The translations under genes and the position numbers were made by a program. Source: a virus. Taken from it: 37,311 bases of DNA. The stretch's first letter is position 1, and every line of letters starts with the position of its first letter. Below are positions 128 to 20,918 of the stretch, in pieces. The notes beneath the pieces were generated by a model that was given only the letters and a program-made list of their open reading frames with translations, was not told the origin of the DNA and did not search any database. Where the stretch lies: IMG/VR virus record IMGVR_UViG_3300031784_000095, positions 1 through 37,311 of that record, one strand, 5' to 3'.

Positions 128-759
128 TTCTCGCGATGGACGAGATCGTCGCCGCAAGCGATGACAAGGTTCAGCCCTATCTGTTCATCTGCTCCGGCCA
201 CGACCTTTCGCTGCAGTTGACGATCGGCGCGATTGCTACTCGCGTCGTTTGCGCGAACACGATGGCGATCGGGTTGAGCGAGATGGGCGACAACTCCCTG
301 CGCATCAAGCACACCAGCAGCGCAGAGAAGCGCATTCAGATGGTCAGCGAATGGCTGGCCACGCCGAGCGCGATGCTCAAGAAGTACGAGAATGCGGTTC
401 AGCGCATGGCCGAAACTCCCATGAGCGACGATCAGTTGCAGGCCTACTTCACCAGCGTGTGGCAGCGCATCAACGGTCGCCTCGTCGTGACCGAGGACGG
501 CTCGCGTCGCGAGACCAAGTTTGAGAACGAGGTCGGCCAGTGGCTGAAGAACTTCCGCGAGGACGAGCGGCAGACTGGCGTGTCCACTAGCGGCACGGTG
601 TGGTCGGCGGTCAACGCCGTCACGCAGTGGGCCAACCATGAGAAGACTGTGCGCGAGGAAGACACTGATCCGACTCGCCGCGTGGAGAGTGTTCTGTTCG
701 GCAGTGCCAGCCGCGTCAATGATGCGGCGCACGCGGCTGCGGAAATGCTGGTCGCCTGA
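1..759 (+). CDS. DUF932-family phage protein, 3' part (gene crosses the circular junction)
   Basis: This is the C-terminal 252 codons of a gene that begins at 36951. Because bases 1-127 equal 37185-37311, the two pieces join in frame into a 330-aa protein. It resembles the DUF932 / TIGR03299 phage-plasmid family, which is common beside recombination genes in phages and has no firmly assigned activity. The sequence has the family's usual layout: an N-terminal half with W-H-G-L-G near the start (in the 36951 piece), a K-G-Y-K-P-I-Q-N segment at the junction, and a long helical C-terminal half. It lies directly upstream of the Bet recombinase gene, fitting an early DNA-metabolism role. The stop is at 757-759 and a TTCG-capped hairpin follows immediately. 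Confidence 0.85.
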
Positions 760-777
760 CGCGACGGCTCGCGGATC

Positions 778-799
778 GGTGGCCTCTTCGGAGGCCACC
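778..799 (+). promoter_or_regulatory. Intergenic hairpin with TTCG tetraloop
   Basis: A perfect 9-bp stem (778-786 pairing with 791-799) is capped by TTCG (787-790), just after the DUF932 stop. No U-run follows, so it is not a clean intrinsic terminator. It could stabilise or separate messages. A second, smaller hairpin (804-819) follows it, the arrangement also seen before three other early genes. Confidence 0.75.
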
Positions 800-803
800 C
801 TTC

Positions 804-819
804 CCTGCGCCATTGCAGG
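804..819 (+). promoter_or_regulatory. Leader hairpin (CCTGC/GCAGG) before bet
   Basis: A 5-bp stem CCTGC (804-808) and GCAGG (815-819) encloses a 6-base loop, 16 bases before the bet start. The 3' arm GCAGGA may itself be part of the ribosome-binding region. Related stems with the same position and sequence stand before the genes starting at 35471, 35778 and 36951. Confidence 0.55.
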
Positions 820-835
820 AGAAACGAGAGACACC

Positions 836-1900
836 ATGTCACTAGCGAATCCAATGTCGTCAGGGTTGACGACGCAGCAGATTGATTTGATCAAGCGTCA
901 GATCGCACCAAAGGCCACGAACGATGAACTCACGCTGTTCGTTGCCGTGTGCAACCGTACCGGACTCGACCCGTTCTCGCGGCAGATTTACTGCGTACAC
1001 CGCTGGAGCGGCAGGGATCAGCGCGAGGTCATGTCGATTCAAGTCAGCATCGACGGGTTCCGTCTGATCGCGCAGCGAAGTGGCGAGTACGCCGGACAGA
1101 TCGGCCCCGAGTGGTGCGATGACTCCGGCGAGTGGCGCGATGTTTGGCTTTCGGACAAGGCTCCGCGAGCATCCCGCGTGGGAGTCATGCGCAAGGGATT
1201 CACGCAGCCCCTGTTCCGTACCGCCCACTGGGACGAGTACGAACCGTTGGACAAGTCGGGCAAGCCGATCGGTCTTTGGGGCAAGATGCCAGCCCTGATG
1301 CTTGGAAAGGTGGCCGAAGCCTTGGCCTTGCGATCTGCCTTCCCCGCCGAAACCAGCGGCCTGTACACGCAGGAGGAGATGACCCGGGCATCGACCGAGC
1401 AGGACGGTCAGGCCGTTCACGCAGCCCCTACGAGGCCTGTGGAGCGATCGGCACTGCCGGAGGCTCCCGTGGCCTCCCCCGTGGCGACGGACGCGCCAGA
1501 GGCGATTCCCGTGGCTCCTAGGGTCAAGGTGATTCGGAAGACCACGAAGGCTCCGCAGCCCGAGGTGGCGATTTCGCCATCAGAACAGGGTATTGACGCA
1601 CCGCCGATCGACTATGTGACCGATCGCCCGCCCCGAGAGGCAGTTTGGGGCAACAAATCATTTGCGGTGGTCAAGATCGCCGAGGGTCGGGAGACAAGCA
1701 CCGGAACCAAGCGATTCCCGATTCTGCTGTCTGACGGGCATGAAGAGCAGTGGGCATCCGTGTTCTCCGATACACTGGTCAACGAGTTGAGCAGGGCCAA
1801 GAGCGGCAGCCTGAAGATTCAGGTGTTCGCCGTTCTGAAGCCACCATACGGCATGACGCTGTACGGATGCCGCGAGGTCGTTGAGGCTCAAGCGAACTAA
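836..1900 (+). CDS. bet: Phage recombination protein Bet (RecT family) with extra C-terminal domain
   Basis: A 354-aa single-strand DNA annealing protein for phage recombination and repair. Residues about 10-190 match the Bet branch of the RecT superfamily, with an F-x-x-x-C-x-x-x-G-L-D-P-F-x-R-Q-I-Y segment and a G[12 protein letters not shown] segment followed by A-L-R-x-A-F-P. A Pro/Ala/Val-rich linker (about 200-265) leads to an additional domain of about 80 residues with beta-strand-like alternation, possibly an OB fold. I chose ATG 836, preceded by GGAGAAACGAG, over the longer open frame because it starts at the conserved N-terminus and lies beyond the leader hairpins. The Gp157-like gene follows. 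No separate single-strand-binding protein was recognised in the genome. Confidence 0.93.
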
Positions 1901-9318: not shown

Positions 9319-9466
9319 AGGCAGTCCGGTGCGGATCGGCCCAGAGTGCCGCGTCCGGGTCTACACCCTGACCGAGAATGGGTGGGAGTTGTCGCCAAAT
9401 ACGGTGATGATTCCCGAAGGCTGGTACTGCGTTCCACCGTCGTATGTGGACAAGCCTGCTCCGTAG
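9236..9466 (+). CDS. Small lipoprotein (candidate outer-membrane spanin-like protein), overlapping gene
   Basis: 76 aa. A basic N-terminus (M-R-H-K-T-R), a hydrophobic stretch and a lipobox-like F-A-N-G-C ending at C19 indicate a lipoprotein signal. The mature part is beta-like: V-T-L-V-S-E-G-S-P-V-R-I, R-V-R-V-Y-T-L-T, then I-P-E-G-W-Y-C-V-P-P. ATG 9236 has GGAGG at 9225-9229, an ideal spacing. It overlaps the upstream gene by 83 bases in a different frame. It could be an o-spanin or a superinfection-exclusion lipoprotein. Confidence 0.7.
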   Translation: MRHKTRIALIGLALAFANGCARVTLVSEGSPVRIGPECRVRVYTLTENGWELSPNTVMIPEGWYCVPPSYVDKPAP

Positions 9467-9483
9467 CGTGTTATGATGGCCGC

Positions 9484-10119
9484 ATGAAGATCAAGCGTGT
9501 AGCCATCGAAACCCTTCAGTCCGACCCGCAGAATGTTCGCAAGCACAACACCGCGAACCTTGACAGCATCCGCGAAAGCCTGAAGAAGTACGGACAAGTC
9601 GAACCGCTGATTGTCGACGCGGACAATGTCGTGCGCTCCGGCAACGGTCGTTTGGAAGTGATGCGGGAACTGGGATACACCCATGTCAACATCCTCCCGA
9701 CAGAACTGAAGGGCAAGGAGGCGATCGCCTATGCCATCGCCGCGAACCGCACCGCCGAACTCGCGGAGTGGGATGACGAGAACCTGCTGGCGCAGTTGCG
9801 CATGATCGCGGAAATGGACGGCGAACTGCTGCTGTCTACTGGCTTCTCCGAGGCCGATCTTGAGCGTCTGAACGAAGACCTCAAGGCTGGCGTTGTTGAA
9901 TCAGAGGCTTCCGCCGAAGCGATGGGCGAGAACATTGCCAAGTACGAGAGCAGCGCGATCCGGCAGATCGTGCTGGTGTTCAGTATGGCGGAATACACTC
10001 GCGTCGTTGATGCGTTCGGTCGCTACTGCGATCAGCACGGGTTGAGCAATAACACCGAAGCCGTCATGCACCTTTTGGAGAGCAATGGCTATGCGTGTGC
10101 TGGAAAGAACGCGGACTGA
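9484..10119 (+). CDS. ParB/Srx-fold protein
   Basis: 211 aa. The N-terminal domain (about residues 1-90) matches ParB-like proteins: L-Q-S-D-P-Q-N-V-R-K-H, I-R-E-S-L-K-K-Y-G-Q-V-E-P-L-I-V, then R-S-G-N-G-R-L-E-V-M at residues 51-60 (the G-x-x-R-type nucleotide or phosphate loop), and A-I-A-A-N-R-T-A-E. The C-terminal part is helical. It is not a plasmid partition protein in this setting. ParB-fold proteins recur in phage base-modification and terminase operons. It overlaps the dioxygenase gene by 35 bases. ATG 9484 was chosen for the conserved N-terminus. Confidence 0.88.
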   Translation: MKIKRVAIETLQSDPQNVRKHNTANLDSIRESLKKYGQVEPLIVDADNVVRSGNGRLEVMRELGYTHVNILPTELKGKEAIAYAIAANRTAELAEWDDENLLAQLRMIAEMDGELLLSTGFSEADLERLNEDLKAGVVESEASAEAMGENIAKYESSAIRQIVLVFSMAEYTRVVDAFGRYCDQHGLSNNTEAVMHLLESNGYACAGKNAD

Positions 10120-10906
10120 ACTTGACCTGACGAAGTTCAAGAATCGCTCCGCACAAGAAACCGACTGCTCGACATACATCAAAGAGTCCACGACCGTGAC
10201 GGTCGATGGGCGCATTGTCATCGTTTACATCTCGTATGTCGATGACAAGGCTCTCGACGAGATGGCGAAGGTGCTGCCGGAAATCAAGTATCAGACTTCC
10301 ACGCGCACCAGCGGTCTCGTTACGACGAGCCGCATCTTCGGCTACGCACCGCGTAACGAACTGCGTCGCCAGCCGTGCAGGGCTACTGGCTTCGCGACGG
10401 AACAGCCGAGGGAACACGCGATCGTCGCTGCGGCCAGCAAAGTGGTCGAGCGTTACTATGTCGATTCGTTCCCTGAACTGTCGCAGTATCACCGAGAACT
10501 GACCGAAGGGAATGTGAAGGAGCAGTATCGGCTTGAGGGGACGATGTTCACAAGCGGAATCGTCAACCACAACAACCCGCTGCGCTACCATTTCGACAGC
10601 GGCAATTTCAAGAATGTCTGTTCGGCCATGTTGGCCTTCAAGCACAAGGTGTCTGGCGGACATCTCTGCATTCCCGAACTTGATTTGATGATTGAGATTG
10701 CTGATCGGTCGCTGCTGCTGTTCGACGGACAGGGGTTGATTCACGGCGTTACGCCGATCAAGAAACTGGCCCCGGATGCGCACCGATTCACGGTTGTGTA
10801 TTACAGTCTTCAGCAGATGTGGAACTGCGAAGCGATCACGGACGAGATTGCCCGACTTCGCAACAAGCGAGCAGAAATCGAACGAAAGCGAGCGAACCTT
10901 GAATAA
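10085..10906 (+). CDS. TET/JBP-like 2-oxoglutarate/Fe(II) dioxygenase
   Basis: 273 aa. The double-stranded beta-helix iron site is visible: H169-F-D171 (in L-R-Y-H-F-D-S-G-N-F), H220 (in L-I-H-G-V-T-P-I) and R234 (A-H-R-F-T-V-V-Y-Y-S-L) for 2-oxoglutarate, the H-x-D...H...R order of TET/JBP enzymes. The family oxidises the 5-methyl of 5mC or thymine in DNA. The N-x-N-x-x-L-R-Y-H-x-D-x-G-N and S-A-M-L-A-F-K segments fit phage members. The next gene encodes a TET-associated glycosyltransferase and the previous one a ParB-like protein, which strongly supports a DNA-base modification role. A charged helical tail (about 250-273) follows. Confidence 0.83.
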   Translation: MAMRVLERTRTELDLTKFKNRSAQETDCSTYIKESTTVTVDGRIVIVYISYVDDKALDEMAKVLPEIKYQTSTRTSGLVTTSRIFGYAPRNELRRQPCRATGFATEQPREHAIVAAASKVVERYYVDSFPELSQYHRELTEGNVKEQYRLEGTMFTSGIVNHNNPLRYHFDSGNFKNVCSAMLAFKHKVSGGHLCIPELDLMIEIADRSLLLFDGQGLIHGVTPIKKLAPDAHRFTVVYYSLQQMWNCEAITDEIARLRNKRAEIERKRANLE

Positions 10907-14821: not shown

Positions 14822-15873
14822 CCAAAGACTTCCTGCGTCTCTACAACTTGGGGCTGCGGGAGGCGAACTATTGGTACGCGAGGGCGGTCGCCAATCAGAT
14901 TCGCGGCGATACGGAGGCGGCAGAGAAGGCTTGGGTTGGATTTGAGAACGCCGTCGCCGATGTGATGACCCTGTCCTACCTAACAGGAGTCTCCGAGACC
15001 TACACCGTTGCCAAACAGGGTGGAATGCCACAGGAGCCACAGGAGTTCCCCGTGGAACGCCCGGAGACATTCGCCCGCCCGTCGCCAGCCTTCAAGCCGG
15101 GACAGTTCTGGAGGTATATCCGTACCTTTAGGAACCGAATACCGATGGGCTGGAAAGAGGTCGAGGCACGCCGAAAGCAGGCTCGCAGGCTAGCCGAGAA
15201 GATTCGGAAGGCAGAGAACGCCGAAGCCATCAAGAAACTCAAGCAGCGGCTAGAGGCTTTGCGAATGCTGACGGAGAACACCTTCGTGATGAAGGGTGCG
15301 ACGCAGCAGCAGGCCAAGCGAATCAAGCAACTGATTGCCGAAAGCATTGAGAATCGCCATGTCGCCAAGGGGTTGAAGACGGGCGGTATGTCGAAGTTCA
15401 TTCGGCGGGCACAGGTCGAAGGCATCATCAACGCCACGCACGCACGGCTGGAAGTCGTGTACCGCACGAACATCTCATCTGCCTACAACGAAGCGGCTTA
15501 CGAGGTGGCAAAGCGACCTGAAACGAAAGCATGGGCACCCCTGCTGCGGCTGTTTGAGGTTCACGACAGGCGCACCCGTGGCGCACCGGGCGGCGAATAT
15601 GCCACGAAAGGCAAATCATCTAACCCCGGATTCCACTGGCAGATGGATGGGTACATTGAGACTCCCGAGCGCATGAAGGCTCAAAACCTCATTCCGCCCA
15701 ACGGATTCAACTGTCGAGGATCGATCCGAGCCGTTTCGCGTTACGAAGCGATGCAACTAAAGATCGCCGACAAGGACGGAAATGTAGACCGAAAGGCACT
15801 TGATCGGTACAACTTACAGCGTCAGAAACTGATCGACAAAGGTCTTTACCCCGATCCCGGATTCAAACGATGA
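14818..15873 (+). CDS. Minor head protein (Mu gpF-like)
   Basis: 351 aa. The C-terminal half (about residues 190-330) matches Mu gpF/SPP1 gp7-type head morphogenesis proteins: Y-R-T-N-I-S-S-A-Y-N-E-A-A-Y-E, D-R-R-T-R-G, H-W-Q-M-D-G-Y and P-P-N-G-F-N-C-R-G-S-I. The central region (about 115-185) is a strong coiled coil. It probably sits inside the prohead near the portal and helps capsid assembly. It starts with an ATGA overlap with the portal gene and ends overlapping the next. Confidence 0.9.
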   Translation: MTKDFLRLYNLGLREANYWYARAVANQIRGDTEAAEKAWVGFENAVADVMTLSYLTGVSETYTVAKQGGMPQEPQEFPVERPETFARPSPAFKPGQFWRYIRTFRNRIPMGWKEVEARRKQARRLAEKIRKAENAEAIKKLKQRLEALRMLTENTFVMKGATQQQAKRIKQLIAESIENRHVAKGLKTGGMSKFIRRAQVEGIINATHARLEVVYRTNISSAYNEAAYEVAKRPETKAWAPLLRLFEVHDRRTRGAPGGEYATKGKSSNPGFHWQMDGYIETPERMKAQNLIPPNGFNCRGSIRAVSRYEAMQLKIADKDGNVDRKALDRYNLQRQKLIDKGLYPDPGFKR

Positions 15874-16643
15874 ATACTGAAGACAAGTTCTACTGCCTCC
15901 GTCCCGGCCAAATCCCTCGCGACAACGATCTCACGCGCCACAATCGACGGATGCTGGTTGAGGCTGTGTCGAAGGCTCGTTCCGTCGGCCTGATCGACAT
16001 TCCGGAGTTCAAGGCAGCAGTCGCGGCACTCAATTCGGTTTCTTCGATTACGCAGAACAAACTGTACGACCTTGAATATGCGCTGACTAAAGCGATCAAG
16101 GAAGAAGGCTTTGCCCGCCCCGGCCAGCCCGACGAGTTCCGCAGGGCCACGGATGACGAAATTGAAAACCTTCTTCTTGAAGCGGAATCTTTGATTGACG
16201 ATGGATTCCCAAGCAAGGCAATCCCGTTTCTTCGCAAAGCATCCAATTCAATCGACATGCACACGGACGCGAAACTGAAGAAAGTTCTCGCGGATCTTAT
16301 GCGAGAAGCCAATGTCCGCTTTTCCCGCCCCGGCCAGCCAGAGCGATTCGGTCTTGAGGATGCGTGCTGGGATGGCTACGAGCCTGTCGGCACGAAGCAG
16401 AAGGACGGTCGCACCGTCCCGAACTGCGTGCCGATGAGCAAAGACACCCACGCCGCTGATGATCGGTCGGCTGACTTCCTGCGCAAGATGGCTGTCGGTG
16501 TGACTCCGAGCAACATCAAGCAGATGCAGATCGTGGTGTCGCAGGCACTTGCCTACGGTCAGGGCAAGCGAGACACTATGCTGATTGAAGAAGCCAAGGC
16601 TGCGCAGGCCGAAATCAACGAACTCAAGAAGGCTGGCCATTGA
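15870..16643 (+). CDS. Modular head-cluster protein with R-P-G linker repeats
   Basis: 257 aa, function unknown. Begins D-K-F-Y-C-L-R-P-G. The linker motif F-A-R-P-G-Q-P-D-E-F (residues 81-90) and F-S-R-P-G-Q-P-E-R-F (151-160) divides it into helical units about 70 residues long. After the second linker comes C-W-D-G-Y-E-P-V-G-T-K and V-P-N-C-V-P, a small motif seen in various phage head-cluster proteins. The same linker occurs in the gene at 16913. It lies between the gpF-like gene and the protease-scaffold gene, so a prohead-internal or packaged protein is likely. ATGA overlap upstream. Confidence 0.75.
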   Translation: MNTEDKFYCLRPGQIPRDNDLTRHNRRMLVEAVSKARSVGLIDIPEFKAAVAALNSVSSITQNKLYDLEYALTKAIKEEGFARPGQPDEFRRATDDEIENLLLEAESLIDDGFPSKAIPFLRKASNSIDMHTDAKLKKVLADLMREANVRFSRPGQPERFGLEDACWDGYEPVGTKQKDGRTVPNCVPMSKDTHAADDRSADFLRKMAVGVTPSNIKQMQIVVSQALAYGQGKRDTMLIEEAKAAQAEINELKKAGH

Positions 16644-16644
16644 G

Positions 16645-16932
16645 ATGAGCCGAAAGGCAGAGGACAAGTTCTACTTCGGCGGCGAGTCAGTTCAGAAGGC
16701 TGGCCGCAGTCGCATACTTGGCAATCTGCTGGACAAGAACATCCTGCCGAATGGCGGGTGGCGTGCGCTGTGCGATCACGACGATCTGCTGATCGTGTCG
16801 TTTGAAGACCCGGACATCGCGGAGTTCGTGTCGAAGAAACTGAAGAAAGCAAGCATCGACCACGACGGGCCAACTGCGGCGGTCGGCGGTCATTTCCACT
16901 TGGAGGTCAGAGATGAATCAGAAGAAGATTGA
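16645..16932 (+). CDS. Small protein of the R-P-G linker cluster
   Basis: 95 aa. Begins M-S-R-K-A-E-D-K-F-Y-F-G-G, sharing the E/D-D/N-K-F-Y opening with its neighbours at 15870 and 16913. The rest looks like a compact alpha/beta domain (W-R-A-L-C-D-H-D-D-L-L-I-V-S-F, then H-F-H-L-E-V-R). Function unknown. ATG 16645 lies one base after the previous stop; the frame upstream belongs to the neighbour. It overlaps the next gene by 20 bases. Confidence 0.7.
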   Translation: MSRKAEDKFYFGGESVQKAGRSRILGNLLDKNILPNGGWRALCDHDDLLIVSFEDPDIAEFVSKKLKKASIDHDGPTAAVGGHFHLEVRDESEED

Positions 16933-18127
16933 GAACAAGTTCTACGCTGCGGCTCCGGGCAAGAAGGGCACGATGGCTCGCAATTCCGAGTTCGACACGG
17001 ACGAGGTGAAGAACATTCTTCACAAGGAATCTCGCGATGCCGAATGGGGCATTGACCGCGAGGCCAAGGGTCAGGGTTTGTACACCTACAGTGCCTATCA
17101 CGCATATATCGGCGAGCGTGTTTTCACCAAGCGATTCAACACTCGCGGCGAAGCGGAGAAGTGGCTTGAGAAGCAGAATGCGGCGGGCCATCCGAACAAG
17201 CGGAAACACGCCCGCCCCGGCGATAAGGATGAGTTCGCCGCCCGTTTGATCAATACTCTCAAAGACGACAAGTCCGGACGCGTCGCGAAGGTTTATCGCG
17301 ATACTGAATACAACGAGTATGTAGTGAAGTTTTACACGAACGGAACTTATCACTCAAAGGCGGATTTTTTCACCGACAACAAAGATGACGCGAATGCAAC
17401 CGCTTCAATGTGGATTCAAAACAAGTTCTCCCGCCCCGGCACGAAGGCGAAGTTTGAGTCACCAAAGAACAAGATTCTCGCAGAACTGAAAGACCTTCTT
17501 GTCATGCTGAAGCAAGTCAAGGCGGATCGTGATGACATCGCGATCGTTTCGGATTCGATCAAGTTTGTAGAAAAGAGCAACAGCAGCAGCGAAATCGGGC
17601 AGGTGTATCGCAATGCGATGGACATTGAGAGACAGTATTTCTCCCGTCCCGGCGCAAAGGCAAAGTTTGCGTGGACTCCGGGTGCTGCGCGCGAGCGAAA
17701 TTATGTCCTAGAGGTCGCACGCAAATTCGACATGGATTGCGCAGAGAAGATTGAGACGCTAAAGAAGGCTCTCGCTTCCGTTCGTAATCTCCGATCAATC
17801 ATTGCGAAGACGGAGAACATGGATGAATTGGACAGCACGCGCGACAAGATGTATTCGATCATGCGAGACGCGAAAATGGATTTCTCCCGCCCGGGCACAA
17901 AGGCGAAGTTTGCGTGGCAACCGGAGATCAATAACGCGATTCGCAAGGTAAATGCCACGATCGACAACAGTCAGGCAAGACTCCGAGAAGCGGCGAAACA
18001 GGGTTTGTGGGCTACTTCGGCTTCGATTTGCAAAGGCATCGGTGCTATGTATTCCGGCAACGGTGGACTTGTAACGCTCTACGAAGAACTTCAGAATGCG
18101 GCAGACAAGGAACGGCGGTCGAAGTAA
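16913..18127 (+). CDS. Large modular protein with F-S-R-P-G-x-K-A-K-F linkers
   Basis: 404 aa, function unknown. Opens with E-N-K-F-Y-A-A-A-P-G-K-K-G. Linkers lie at H99-A-R-P-G-D-K-D-E-F108, F172-S-R-P-G-T-K-A-K-F181, F243-S-R-P-G-A-K-A-K-F252 and F324-S-R-P-G-T-K-A-K-F333, giving units of about 71-81 residues. The first two units look alpha/beta, with aromatic strands (Y-T-Y-S-A-Y-H-A-Y-I-G and Y-V-V-K-F-Y-T-N-G-T). The later units look all-helical. The linkers could be protease sites, flexible hinges or binding tags. It lies directly before the protease-scaffold gene. ATG 16913 has GGAGGTCAGAG upstream. Confidence 0.78.
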   Translation: MNQKKIENKFYAAAPGKKGTMARNSEFDTDEVKNILHKESRDAEWGIDREAKGQGLYTYSAYHAYIGERVFTKRFNTRGEAEKWLEKQNAAGHPNKRKHARPGDKDEFAARLINTLKDDKSGRVAKVYRDTEYNEYVVKFYTNGTYHSKADFFTDNKDDANATASMWIQNKFSRPGTKAKFESPKNKILAELKDLLVMLKQVKADRDDIAIVSDSIKFVEKSNSSSEIGQVYRNAMDIERQYFSRPGAKAKFAWTPGAARERNYVLEVARKFDMDCAEKIETLKKALASVRNLRSIIAKTENMDELDSTRDKMYSIMRDAKMDFSRPGTKAKFAWQPEINNAIRKVNATIDNSQARLREAAKQGLWATSASICKGIGAMYSGNGGLVTLYEELQNAADKERRSK

Positions 18128-18129
18128 CC

Positions 18130-19413
18130 ATGCCAGCATCCCACACAGTTGAGAAGACAGCCGAAGGCAAGGTTTGCATTCGCAACCTTGAACTGTTCAT
18201 GGGCTTCGACCCGTCGATTGATTCCGACGAGGACGAAACCATGCAGCAGTACGACAACCGCAAGGTGGCTTCAATCGCCAAGCGAACCAACCAGTTCATC
18301 GCCCGTGGGTCTAGGCCCAAGTTGGTGATTGAGCATGAGAAGGAAGGCAAGGAAGCCGTTCCCGCTGCCGTTGGCGACATTACGACCGTGCGGTACGAAG
18401 ACCGCAACGGTGTCGGCTACATCGTCGGCGATGTGGAGATGTCGCAGCCGCTGTTCGATAAGTTGCTTGGGAACAATGCTTTCCCTCGACGGTCAGCAGA
18501 GATTTGGAAGGACGATCACCTCTCGGAAGTCGCGTTGCTTGGACGCGACACTCCCCGACGGCCACTTCCCGATACCAAGTTTGGGAAGAACGGAAACAAG
18601 GTAGTATTTGAGCGACCGATGGGATCGTTGCGTGTAAGTCTTGACAACAAGGTTCGGAACGCGGAAACTGGCGTGGGTGGCGGCTCAAACACCTTCGTCC
18701 CGACCGCAGGAACACAGAGGAATCCAATGGCACGAAAGATGAAGAAGCAGATGGAAGCAGAGGACGAGAAGGAGCAGAACGAGGCTCTTTGCGCCGCTGC
18801 CGATGACACCGATGAAATGGCTGGCCCTGAAATGACCATGGAGGCCGAGGGTTCGGGCCTTGAGGACCTGATGGAGTCCGACGCTGTTCATGTGGACATC
18901 GGTTCGCATCAGGGCGAGGAAGAAATGGCCGCTGATGACGACGAGATGTTTGAGGAAGAGGACGAGGATGAGATGGAGGCCGAGGCCGCTGCGGGTGGCA
19001 AGAAGCCGTTCAAGTCTGCCTATTCGAAGGGAAGCAAGATGAACAAGGAACTGTTTGCTCGCGTTCGTGAACTGGAGGCGCAGAATGCTCGCTACGAGCG
19101 TCAACTTCGTCTTGAGCGTTTCGCTCGCGAGGTCGATGGCATGATTCGCGAGGGCTATCGCTGCGGCAAGTTCCGCAATTCGATGGTCGAGGAACTGGCT
19201 GATGCCAAGAACCCCGTTGCCAAGATGTCGTTCTGGAAGGCAACCATGAGCCGCGACCCCATCGGCGTGCCCACTATCGCGCAGTTCACCATGACTGACG
19301 ATGGCGACGGCATGAGTGAGCGTGAGGCCTATGAGCGTGCCATGCGCGAGGCTGGCAACGATTCGGGCAAGTATCGTCAACTGTTCGCAAAGTACACGGG
19401 CCAGAAGGCCTAA
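18130..19413 (+). CDS. Prohead protease-scaffold protein (Mu gpI/Z-like)
   Basis: 427 aa. The N-terminal half (about residues 10-150) looks like a Mu gpI-type prohead protease: L-V-I-E-H69, V-G-D-I, F-P-R-R-S122-A-E-I-W and L-S-E-V-A-L-L, where H69 and S122 are candidate catalytic residues. A shared peptide G181-V-G-G-G-S-N-T-F-V-P-T192 is followed by a very acidic region (about 210-290) and a basic coiled coil (about 295-345) typical of scaffolds. An internal ATG at 18727 probably makes the scaffold alone. The gene starts two bases after the previous stop and precedes the decoration and capsid genes. Confidence 0.85.
   Translation: MPASHTVEKTAEGKVCIRNLELFMGFDPSIDSDEDETMQQYDNRKVASIAKRTNQFIARGSRPKLVIEHEKEGKEAVPAAVGDITTVRYEDRNGVGYIVGDVEMSQPLFDKLLGNNAFPRRSAEIWKDDHLSEVALLGRDTPRRPLPDTKFGKNGNKVVFERPMGSLRVSLDNKVRNAETGVGGGSNTFVPTAGTQRNPMARKMKKQMEAEDEKEQNEALCAAADDTDEMAGPEMTMEAEGSGLEDLMESDAVHVDIGSHQGEEEMAADDDEMFEEEDEDEMEAEAAAGGKKPFKSAYSKGSKMNKELFARVRELEAQNARYERQLRLERFAREVDGMIREGYRCGKFRNSMVEELADAKNPVAKMSFWKATMSRDPIGVPTIAQFTMTDDGDGMSEREAYERAMREAGNDSGKYRQLFAKYTGQKA
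18727..19413 (+). CDS. Nested scaffold protein from an internal start
   Basis: Inside the protease-scaffold gene, ATG 18727 is preceded by AGAGGA at ideal spacing and lies just after the shared G-G-G-S-N-x-F-V-P-T peptide. It would give 228 aa containing only the acidic and coiled-coil parts. Mu (I/Z) and lambda (C/Nu3) make their scaffolds from nested starts in the protease gene, so this is a likely separate product. No direct evidence for its use is in the sequence. Confidence 0.55.
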   Translation: MARKMKKQMEAEDEKEQNEALCAAADDTDEMAGPEMTMEAEGSGLEDLMESDAVHVDIGSHQGEEEMAADDDEMFEEEDEDEMEAEAAAGGKKPFKSAYSKGSKMNKELFARVRELEAQNARYERQLRLERFAREVDGMIREGYRCGKFRNSMVEELADAKNPVAKMSFWKATMSRDPIGVPTIAQFTMTDDGDGMSEREAYERAMREAGNDSGKYRQLFAKYTGQKA

Positions 19414-19877: not shown

Positions 19878-20918
19878 ATGGCTGAATACGGAATTGGCGG
19901 TGGATCGAATATCTTCGTTCCCACCTTCTCGGCGGCGACTGGCGCGATTCAGATTGAATTCACGCGCAGTCCCAACTCGTTTGCGATCACGCAGTACGCG
20001 CAGATCGTTCCTGTCACGCAGTCCAAGGGTTACTACCTGAAGATTGATGAGGAAGAGACTGCTCGCGTTGTGAACACGCAGGACTTCCAGTGGCCTCTCG
20101 GTGAGGATCGTCCGACTGGCGTGCAGAGCGACTTTGAGTTCGTCTCGTACGCCACGCAGCGATATCAGACCTCGTTCGGCATTCCGACCGAGAACATCAA
20201 GCAGGCGCAGTGGGACATCGTGGCTTCGCACGCTCGCATTCACGCGCAGCGCATGATGACCCTGCGTTCGTACCGTGCTGCTTCTGCTCTGACCAACTCA
20301 AGCAACTGGACGAATAACCTGAACTACTTCAGCAACGCTACTGCGCTGGGTGCTAGTGGCTACACCAACGGTGGTGCTGTTCAGAAGATCATTCGTCTCG
20401 CTTGCGAGAAGATCATTCAGAACACCGTTGGCGTGGTGCGTCCGAAGGACATTCTCATGGTCATCAACCCCTCGACGGCTCGCCTGCTCGCAGCGACCTC
20501 CGATGTGACCGACTATGTGAAGAACTACCCGGCTGCGCTTGAGTACCTGCGTGGTTCGACTGCGTTCTCGCTGTACGGTCTGCCGCAAGACCTTTACGGT
20601 CTTGGTGGTATCGTGGTTGATGACACGGTGCGCGTGTCGAGTCGCAAGACTCCGAACACGACTAGCAGCAGCCGTGGCTTCTTCTACAACAACTCCAGCA
20701 GCAAGCCGCAGATGGTGTTCGTGAGCCGTCCCGGTGGTCTTGTGGGCAACGAAGGCCCATCGTTCAGCACCCTGTCGATCTTCGCCTACGAAGACATGAC
20801 TGTGGAGACGAGCGAAGACCCGTGGAATCGCCGCCTGAAGGGCAGTGTGGTCGACAACTCGGCCATCGAAGTGACTGCGCCGTTGAGTGGCGTGTTCATC
20901 GACGACATCACCGCCTAA
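19878..20918 (+). CDS. Major capsid protein
   Basis: 346 aa. By position (after scaffold and decoration, before head-completion genes), length and composition this is the main capsid protein, most likely HK97-fold. Residues 5-16 are G-I-G-G-G-S-N-I-F-V-P-T, nearly identical to a peptide in the protease-scaffold protein. Later segments such as A-Q-R-M-M-T-L-R-S-Y-R-A-A, I-L-M-V-I-N-P-S-T-A-R and S-I-F-A-Y-E-D-M-T-V-E are typical of capsid proteins of this head type. The start has AGAAAGGGC upstream, and a strong terminator follows the gene. Confidence 0.88.
   Translation: MAEYGIGGGSNIFVPTFSAATGAIQIEFTRSPNSFAITQYAQIVPVTQSKGYYLKIDEEETARVVNTQDFQWPLGEDRPTGVQSDFEFVSYATQRYQTSFGIPTENIKQAQWDIVASHARIHAQRMMTLRSYRAASALTNSSNWTNNLNYFSNATALGASGYTNGGAVQKIIRLACEKIIQNTVGVVRPKDILMVINPSTARLLAATSDVTDYVKNYPAALEYLRGSTAFSLYGLPQDLYGLGGIVVDDTVRVSSRKTPNTTSSSRGFFYNNSSSKPQMVFVSRPGGLVGNEGPSFSTLSIFAYEDMTVETSEDPWNRRLKGSVVDNSAIEVTAPLSGVFIDDITA

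Follow-up and report, generated by a model that had tools for sequence, protein, structure and literature searches.

We describe here a locus in the 37,311-b IMG/VR virus record IMGVR_UViG_3300031784_000095, whose whole length is referred to as the window. Three consecutive open reading frames (ORFs), the string genes, lie between a MuF-like gene and a putative prohead protease gene, and they encode short units (modules) that are joined by a peptide linker of the type FSRPGTKAKF and preceded by a related N-terminal tag. In the related phages examined below, this linker is conserved as DNA and is the site of module exchange between phages, and the string proteins are likely internal head proteins. 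A strict linker pattern occurs six times in the six frames of the window and is confined to two genes, which recovers all six linkers proposed by an earlier sequence-only reading; their spacing is 70 amino acids (aa) in gene 15870-16643 and 73, 71, and 81 aa in gene 16913-18127, within the interval of about 70 to 81 residues given there. The motif [DE][DN]KFY stands at the start of all three string ORFs, as that reading had also claimed, with no further copy in six frames. At the DNA level, the linker core TTCTCCCGCCCCGGC with up to 3 mismatches has 7 matches in the window versus 1.7 expected, 6 of them being the linkers, and 7 or more matches were reached in 0 of 100 shuffled windows. The N-terminal tags are themselves linker variants (KFYCLRPGQ and KFYAAAPGKK in the window, EDKFYFGKPGQPERF in relatives), so that a copy stands before nearly every module. 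The features of the string genes are as follows.

15870..16643, + strand: string gene 1 (257 aa), with an N-terminal tag, two helical-looking units, and a third unit with CWxGYxxxGTKxKxGRxVPNCVP
15879..15893, + strand: N-terminal tag EDKFY of string gene 1, running on as CLRPGQ (pattern search)
16110..16139, + strand: linker FARPGQPDEF, string gene 1 (pattern and DNA-core search)
16140..16319, + strand: unit of family F18, string gene 1; in contigs L068 and L069 an internal unit of gene 2
16320..16349, + strand: linker FSRPGQPERF, string gene 1 (pattern and DNA-core search)
16350..16640, + strand: C-terminal unit with the CW...VPNCVP motif, string gene 1
16645..16932, + strand: string gene 2 (95 aa), tag AEDKFYF plus a constant "anchor" module
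16660..16674, + strand: N-terminal tag EDKFY, string gene 2 (pattern search)
16913..18127, + strand: string gene 3 (404 aa), with N-terminal tag ENKFY, five units, and four linkers
16931..16945, + strand: N-terminal tag ENKFY, string gene 3 (pattern search)
16946..17206, + strand: unit 1 of gene 3, predicted beta-beta-beta-alpha (AlphaFold)
17207..17236, + strand: linker HARPGDKDEF, string gene 3 (pattern and DNA-core search)
17237..17425, + strand: unit 2 of gene 3, family F30, equal to phrog_7884 (7e-20)
17426..17455, + strand: linker FSRPGTKAKF, exact TTCTCCCGCCCCGGC, string gene 3 (pattern and DNA-core search)
17456..17638, + strand: unit 3 of gene 3, predicted helical (AlphaFold)
17639..17668, + strand: linker FSRPGAKAKF, string gene 3 (pattern and DNA-core search)
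17669..17881, + strand: unit 4 of gene 3, predicted helical (AlphaFold)
17882..17911, + strand: linker FSRPGTKAKF, string gene 3 (pattern and DNA-core search)
17912..18124, + strand: unit 5 of gene 3, predicted helical, family F19 (AlphaFold and family clustering)

Searches with two proteins, the constant last module, and the linker DNA gathered more than 50 viral contigs, which are related and possibly come from overlapping samples. Among 51 uncultivated phage contigs we observe 47 distinct module strings, located between MuF and the prohead protease. Cutting at linkers, with regular expressions that miss degenerate linkers, yields 271 modules in 67 families, a lower bound since the largest family (F0) chains several uncut units. 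Module families recur at varied positions and beside varied neighbours. The contigs form two groups. In group A, the gene after MuF starts with MNTEDKFYFGKxGQPERF or MTNKTEDRFYFGK (EDKFYFGK opens the gene in most relatives), the first gene has one to several modules behind SRPGQPERF linkers with the constant module last, and the second has its modules behind SRPG[AEK]K[DA]x[MF] linkers. Most relatives have the anchor module joined onto gene 1 as its last part; in the window it forms a separate 95-aa gene. The window-type linker pattern was found in 30 contigs, mostly of the divergent group B, whose strings hold up to seven SRPGAKAK[FM] linkers in one ORF and are placed after the terminase large subunit (TerL) and/or after MuF in a comparable head module. 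For 24 group A module families a match exists in group B, with best identities of 38 to 82%. Group B strings open with an R.EI..RLG.A-like sequence, not KFYF (L155 3450-4826, L134 9326-10858), and many of them end in VSRKIxxLxxEGxPQxQAVAIALDMxRRGEL, a sequence also seen in group A portal extensions. The near-identical contig L002 (425-1809) carries an internal deletion in which the last part of the 95-aa gene and the beginning of gene 3 are lost.

The exchange of modules at the linker can be seen directly in DNA alignments. Modules that are 90 to 100% identical between phages drop to approximately 25% identity as soon as the linker on either side is passed. As this first profile was conditioned on whole-module identity, the breakpoint test was redone with unconditioned BLASTN segments, near-duplicate contigs being removed by hand. 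Homology ends inside linkers in 230 of 516 unique internal ends, where 57 are expected and the maximum in 500 randomisations is 78, and within 15 nucleotides (nt) of linkers in 343 of 516 (103 expected, maximum 130); ends inside linkers are thus about 4 times commoner than chance. Codon choice in the linkers is nearly fixed (first R, CGC in 107/116; second R, CGG in 75/81; P, CCC in 121/123), and the same codons are mixed in the modules, which makes this usage position specific and not a general preference. Group B linkers share the DNA core of group A. In addition, 15 other records have 2 to 8 copies each of the 12-mer KCCCGCCCCGGC; almost all of these copies share one strand, and the reversed control is almost never present. 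One copy, at 16966 in G007 and close to an annealing gene, falls within a terminator-like stretch and was counted as chance. We also considered a site-specific recombinase site, suggested by an imperfect inverted repeat in the QPERF linker, and rejected it because AKAKF and EKDM linkers lack the second arm of the repeat.

A candidate for the shuffling machinery is encoded near the start of the window.

638..1900, + strand: RecT-like single-strand annealing protein (phrog_2780, 1.5e-61)

An ERF annealing protein is present in 14 of 16 records and RecT in the window, with 15 of 16 having either, and we infer that RecT/ERF is the agent of shuffling at the seams. The window RecT (638-1900) has its C-terminal domain in common with L166-L170, where the annealing core is ERF, which amounts to an exchange of the core inside one gene. 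A further observation in the window is a queuine tRNA-ribosyltransferase-like gene (phrog_6059, 10085-10906) beside a ParB-like gene (9346-10119); the former is possibly involved in 7-deazaguanine DNA modification.

The modules are real proteins under purifying selection. Comparable pairs were available for 28 families, which give a median omega of 0.15 and family medians of 0.39 at most; the values are rough since saturated pairs give 0. The median length of family representatives is 70 aa, the net charge is positive in 57 of 66 module families, and cysteine makes up 0.14%. A Pfam scan of a large module set found no significant family. AlphaFold modeling of gene 3 (5 sequences) gave a mean predicted local distance difference test score (pLDDT) of 55.7, with two beta-rich units carrying a C-terminal helix at a pLDDT of approximately 75 to 80 and the rest as helical units. 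A stretch with pLDDT of <50 contains or overlaps every gene 3 linker in the model, and the linkers probably sit in disordered stretches. In a fold search, unit 2 of gene 3 resembles predicted small phage proteins (template modeling score up to 0.92), and against solved structures no fold match with an E value of <0.001 was obtained; the best rows, AP2 tandem repeat, PUR-alpha, and Hsp70 lid bundles, are at noise level. The CWxGYxxxGTKxKxGRxVPNCVP motif of gene 1 lies in a part that matches more than 350 phage records, mostly cyanophages and also haloviruses, as unannotated proteins. In the phage records matched, these relatives show no consistent location in head genes and therefore lend no support to a head assignment.

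Two module families also occur as stand-alone genes elsewhere. F30 (phrog_7884) is the second gene of the T7-like phage phiPSA2, ahead of its RNA polymerase, and an early-region gene in T7-like Pseudomonas phages, and F13 (phrog_9437) is found in Rhizobium and other phages. The SRPGQPERF pattern has 19 matches in 84,980 bacterial/archaeal genomes, none in a cassette context, and this search pointed to no host. A concatenate of modules (1,190 aa) gave no tblastn match in 50,697 phages, a weak negative because single-protein queries with other modules did match.

The string genes lie within a head operon, in the order TerL (phrog_38), Mu-type portal (Pfam Portal_Mu, 7.5e-51), MuF-like protein (2.9e-5, below the Pfam cut-off), three string genes, putative protease-scaffold protein, a decoration- or scaffold-like protein (phrog_673), and major capsid protein (MCP; phrog_1005, 5.7e-6). 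The closest named portals are those of Mu-like Pseudomonas phages at approximately 24% identity, and the context of TerL, portal, MuF, strings, protease, and MCP is found in both groups. The locus directly adjoins the protein proposed earlier as a prohead protease, which we retain as a putative prohead protease-scaffold protein on the basis of position and sequence layout.

18130..19413, + strand: putative prohead protease with a scaffold-like C-terminal half
18574..18615, + strand: linker-like site TKFGKNGNKVVFER at the junction of its catalytic and scaffold parts

A search against Pfam, PHROG, and NCBIfam gave no family match for this protease. Nearly every protease, whether from group A or group B, keeps the sequence PDT[KRHQ]FxxxGx where its two halves meet, and in the window protease the junction site scores 2.5 (p 0.027 for that protein). 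Some scaffold halves carry full tags, such as SRPGKADTF in group B. We then applied a profile built from 195 linkers to non-redundant head proteins. Significant best tag-like sites were obtained in 11 of 19 protease-scaffold proteins, 7 of 21 portals, and 3 of 22 MuF proteins, and in none of 7 MCPs or 8 TerL proteins. The portal matches are mostly tags preceding appended C-terminal modules. In phages generally, the interior of the prohead is faced or filled by the C-terminal parts of portals and by protease-scaffold proteins. The presence of tag-like sites in these proteins, and their absence from MCP and TerL, suggests a head-internal role of the tag peptide, which may be targeting, processing, or both. 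The portal C-terminal extensions of relatives are modular as well (portal ORFs of 472 to 972 aa). Two portals (L080 1933-4737 and L087 1588-4506) end in a module with VYRG...HSTS...ExE, an R / STS / ExE ADP-ribosyltransferase signature that recalls T4 Alt; the assignment was not confirmed by Pfam, NCBIfam, a PDB sequence search, or AlphaFold. A further short likeness links GGGSNIFVPTF near the N terminus of the MCP (19878-20918) with GGGSNTFVPTA in the protease-scaffold protein (18130-19413), and GGGxNxFVPT is seen in group B too.

The explanation that we favor, with moderate confidence, is that the locus encodes internal-head cargo proteins exchanged as in-frame cassettes, a combinatorial analogue of T4 internal-protein loci. 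Each module of approximately 60 to 100 aa would be joined to its neighbours via a linker of approximately 30 nt, whose DNA would provide the homology for exchanging, adding, and losing modules between phages; breakpoints and synonymous-site conservation show exchange at this homology. The string proteins would enter the prohead as internal cargo, which is likely given the head operon, the N-terminal tags, the tag-like peptides in protease-scaffold and portal extensions, and a likeness to T4 internal proteins that extends to size, diversity, and an often positive charge. The linker peptide would act as a targeting and/or protease-recognition signal, and modules would be freed in the capsid, ejected with the DNA, and act on host defences or metabolism. 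Release in the capsid and ejection against the host form the least certain step: we give ejection as anti-host factors an even chance and hold cleavage at the linkers by the prohead protease to be slightly less probable than that. More tentatively, one 30-nt element may carry a dual code, as an annealing seam and as a translated packaging/processing tag for a shared pool of injected mini-proteins.

The sequence-only reading had taken the conserved linker between divergent units as a tag or protease site. The divergence of the units, which mostly belong to unrelated families, the occurrence of the system in other phages, the position next to the protease, the low-confidence stretches around the linkers, and the tag-like sites elsewhere leave that proposal partly supported; the role of the linker as a DNA seam had been overlooked. 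The seam role alone could explain much of the linker conservation, and the linker could be solely a DNA recombination site and flexible joint, its peptide taking no part in targeting or processing, between domains of strings that act intact as multi-domain head proteins. Near-invariant synonymous sites and linker breakpoints require no peptide function, and probably disordered linkers would suit a joint. We nevertheless regard this as unlikely, because tag-like peptides are found outside cassettes in protease-scaffold proteins and portal extensions and not in MCP or TerL, the KFY tags at gene starts join no two modules, and the peptide is kept by two groups with different second halves (QPERF, AKAKF/M). 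A peptide role besides the DNA seam, as tag or protease site, is therefore likely as a second function. A stronger form of the cargo explanation, overlapping with it in probability and by itself not quite evenly poised, holds, in line with the sequence-only reading, that the prohead protease cuts every linker and frees each unit. A tag copy stands before nearly every module though one would suffice for packaging, the linkers are low-confidence stretches in the AlphaFold model, and a tag-like motif lies at the protease junction in both groups, with full tags (SRPGKADTF) in group B scaffold halves. However, the final F of the junction motif is replaced by C in several proteases, and the half following RPG varies (QPER, TKAK, DKDE, EKDM), which is unusual for one strict scissile site.

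It is rather doubtful that the strings remain in the head as structural core or DNA-condensing proteins, with turnover reflecting drift or host-unrelated packaging needs. The net positive charge of most module families, the head-operon location, and a weak, nonsignificant resemblance of units 1 and 2 to the DNA/RNA-binding folds AP2 and PUR would fit such a role, but extreme turnover combined with purifying selection within families fits an arms race better, and two families stand alone elsewhere, one in an early region before a T7-type RNA polymerase. A last alternative is recent tandem duplication in one genome, with no system behind it; the sequence-only reading had named such duplication, together with absence of the linker from other genomes, as refuting its proposal. 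Three linkers of gene 3 are almost identical to each other, yet the units belong mostly to unrelated families and the pattern search beyond the window finds linkers with other modules in tens of contigs of two phage groups; this explanation is refuted. Several points weigh against the cargo explanation. Relatives of known function are lacking for most modules, and the set includes no known anti-defence protein; string genes 1 and 2 of the window are not net basic; and the gene 3 model is of low confidence overall (mean pLDDT 55.7). The protease assignment stands on position and layout without a family match, the junction site is the best non-cassette match in the window yet not significant genome-wide, and the proteases of relatives are not independent of one another. 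In addition, given the strong DNA conservation, amino acid conservation of the linker could be a by-product of recombination.

The T-even internal proteins are diverse small injected restriction-enzyme inhibitors that share only a capsid targeting sequence (PMC3012670, PMC12373910), mature T4 IPI* having 76 residues (PMC3012670). Their ip loci (IPI, IPII, IPIII) are similarly polymorphic loci of very diverse small proteins that share only a short tag; these proteins are injected, and proteolysis converts IPI to its mature form (PMC3012670, PMC12373910). Here, at least 67 module families stand behind a common tag/linker and all three window genes have an N-terminal tag, with R.EI..RLG as the opening in group B instead. 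T4 has separate genes with one N-terminal tag each, whereas here the proteins are fused strings with a linker copy before each unit; a further difference from T4, compared by description, is that both phage groups here conserve the linker at the DNA level. Since one gene per protein is the T4-type feature that is absent, with up to seven linkers in one ORF, the locus is not classed as a T4-type internal-protein locus. The Dar antirestriction proteins of P1 are also head-packaged and anti-host, DarB being directed by a short N-terminal sequence, but they are separate proteins without a common tag or module array (PMC9024508). As far as the accessible parts of the sources go, the giant phage SPN3US has many internal proteins, several of which are cleaved by the prohead protease and ejected, and differs as an unrelated giant phage with separate gene products and no repeated linker described there (PMC10052503, PMC7411985). 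Recombination that swaps segments likewise produces composite proteins in phage domain mosaicism (PMC10684548) and in polymorphic toxins (PMC3482391), but the proteins concerned are mainly tail proteins, lysins, and replication proteins, or the tips of toxins, and no repeated in-frame DNA seam between all segments is described for them. In the open-access literature, to which our survey was confined (subscription literature being outside its scope), no account of such an arrangement was found.

At this locus, phages exchange protein modules at a defined seam in the DNA, by a mechanism that is directly testable. Dual-code cassettes, if true, would be a bacterial-virus counterpart of exon shuffling and of plug-in polyprotein cassettes. 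If the cargo explanation is right, the locus may provide a short head-targeting peptide that could serve as a tool, and phages of this kind would share a pool of small proteins that are delivered by the virion and can be recognised from a single tag, with at least 67 families from approximately 50 contigs. The families of this pool, nearly all without known function, would then be natural candidates for inhibitors of host defence.

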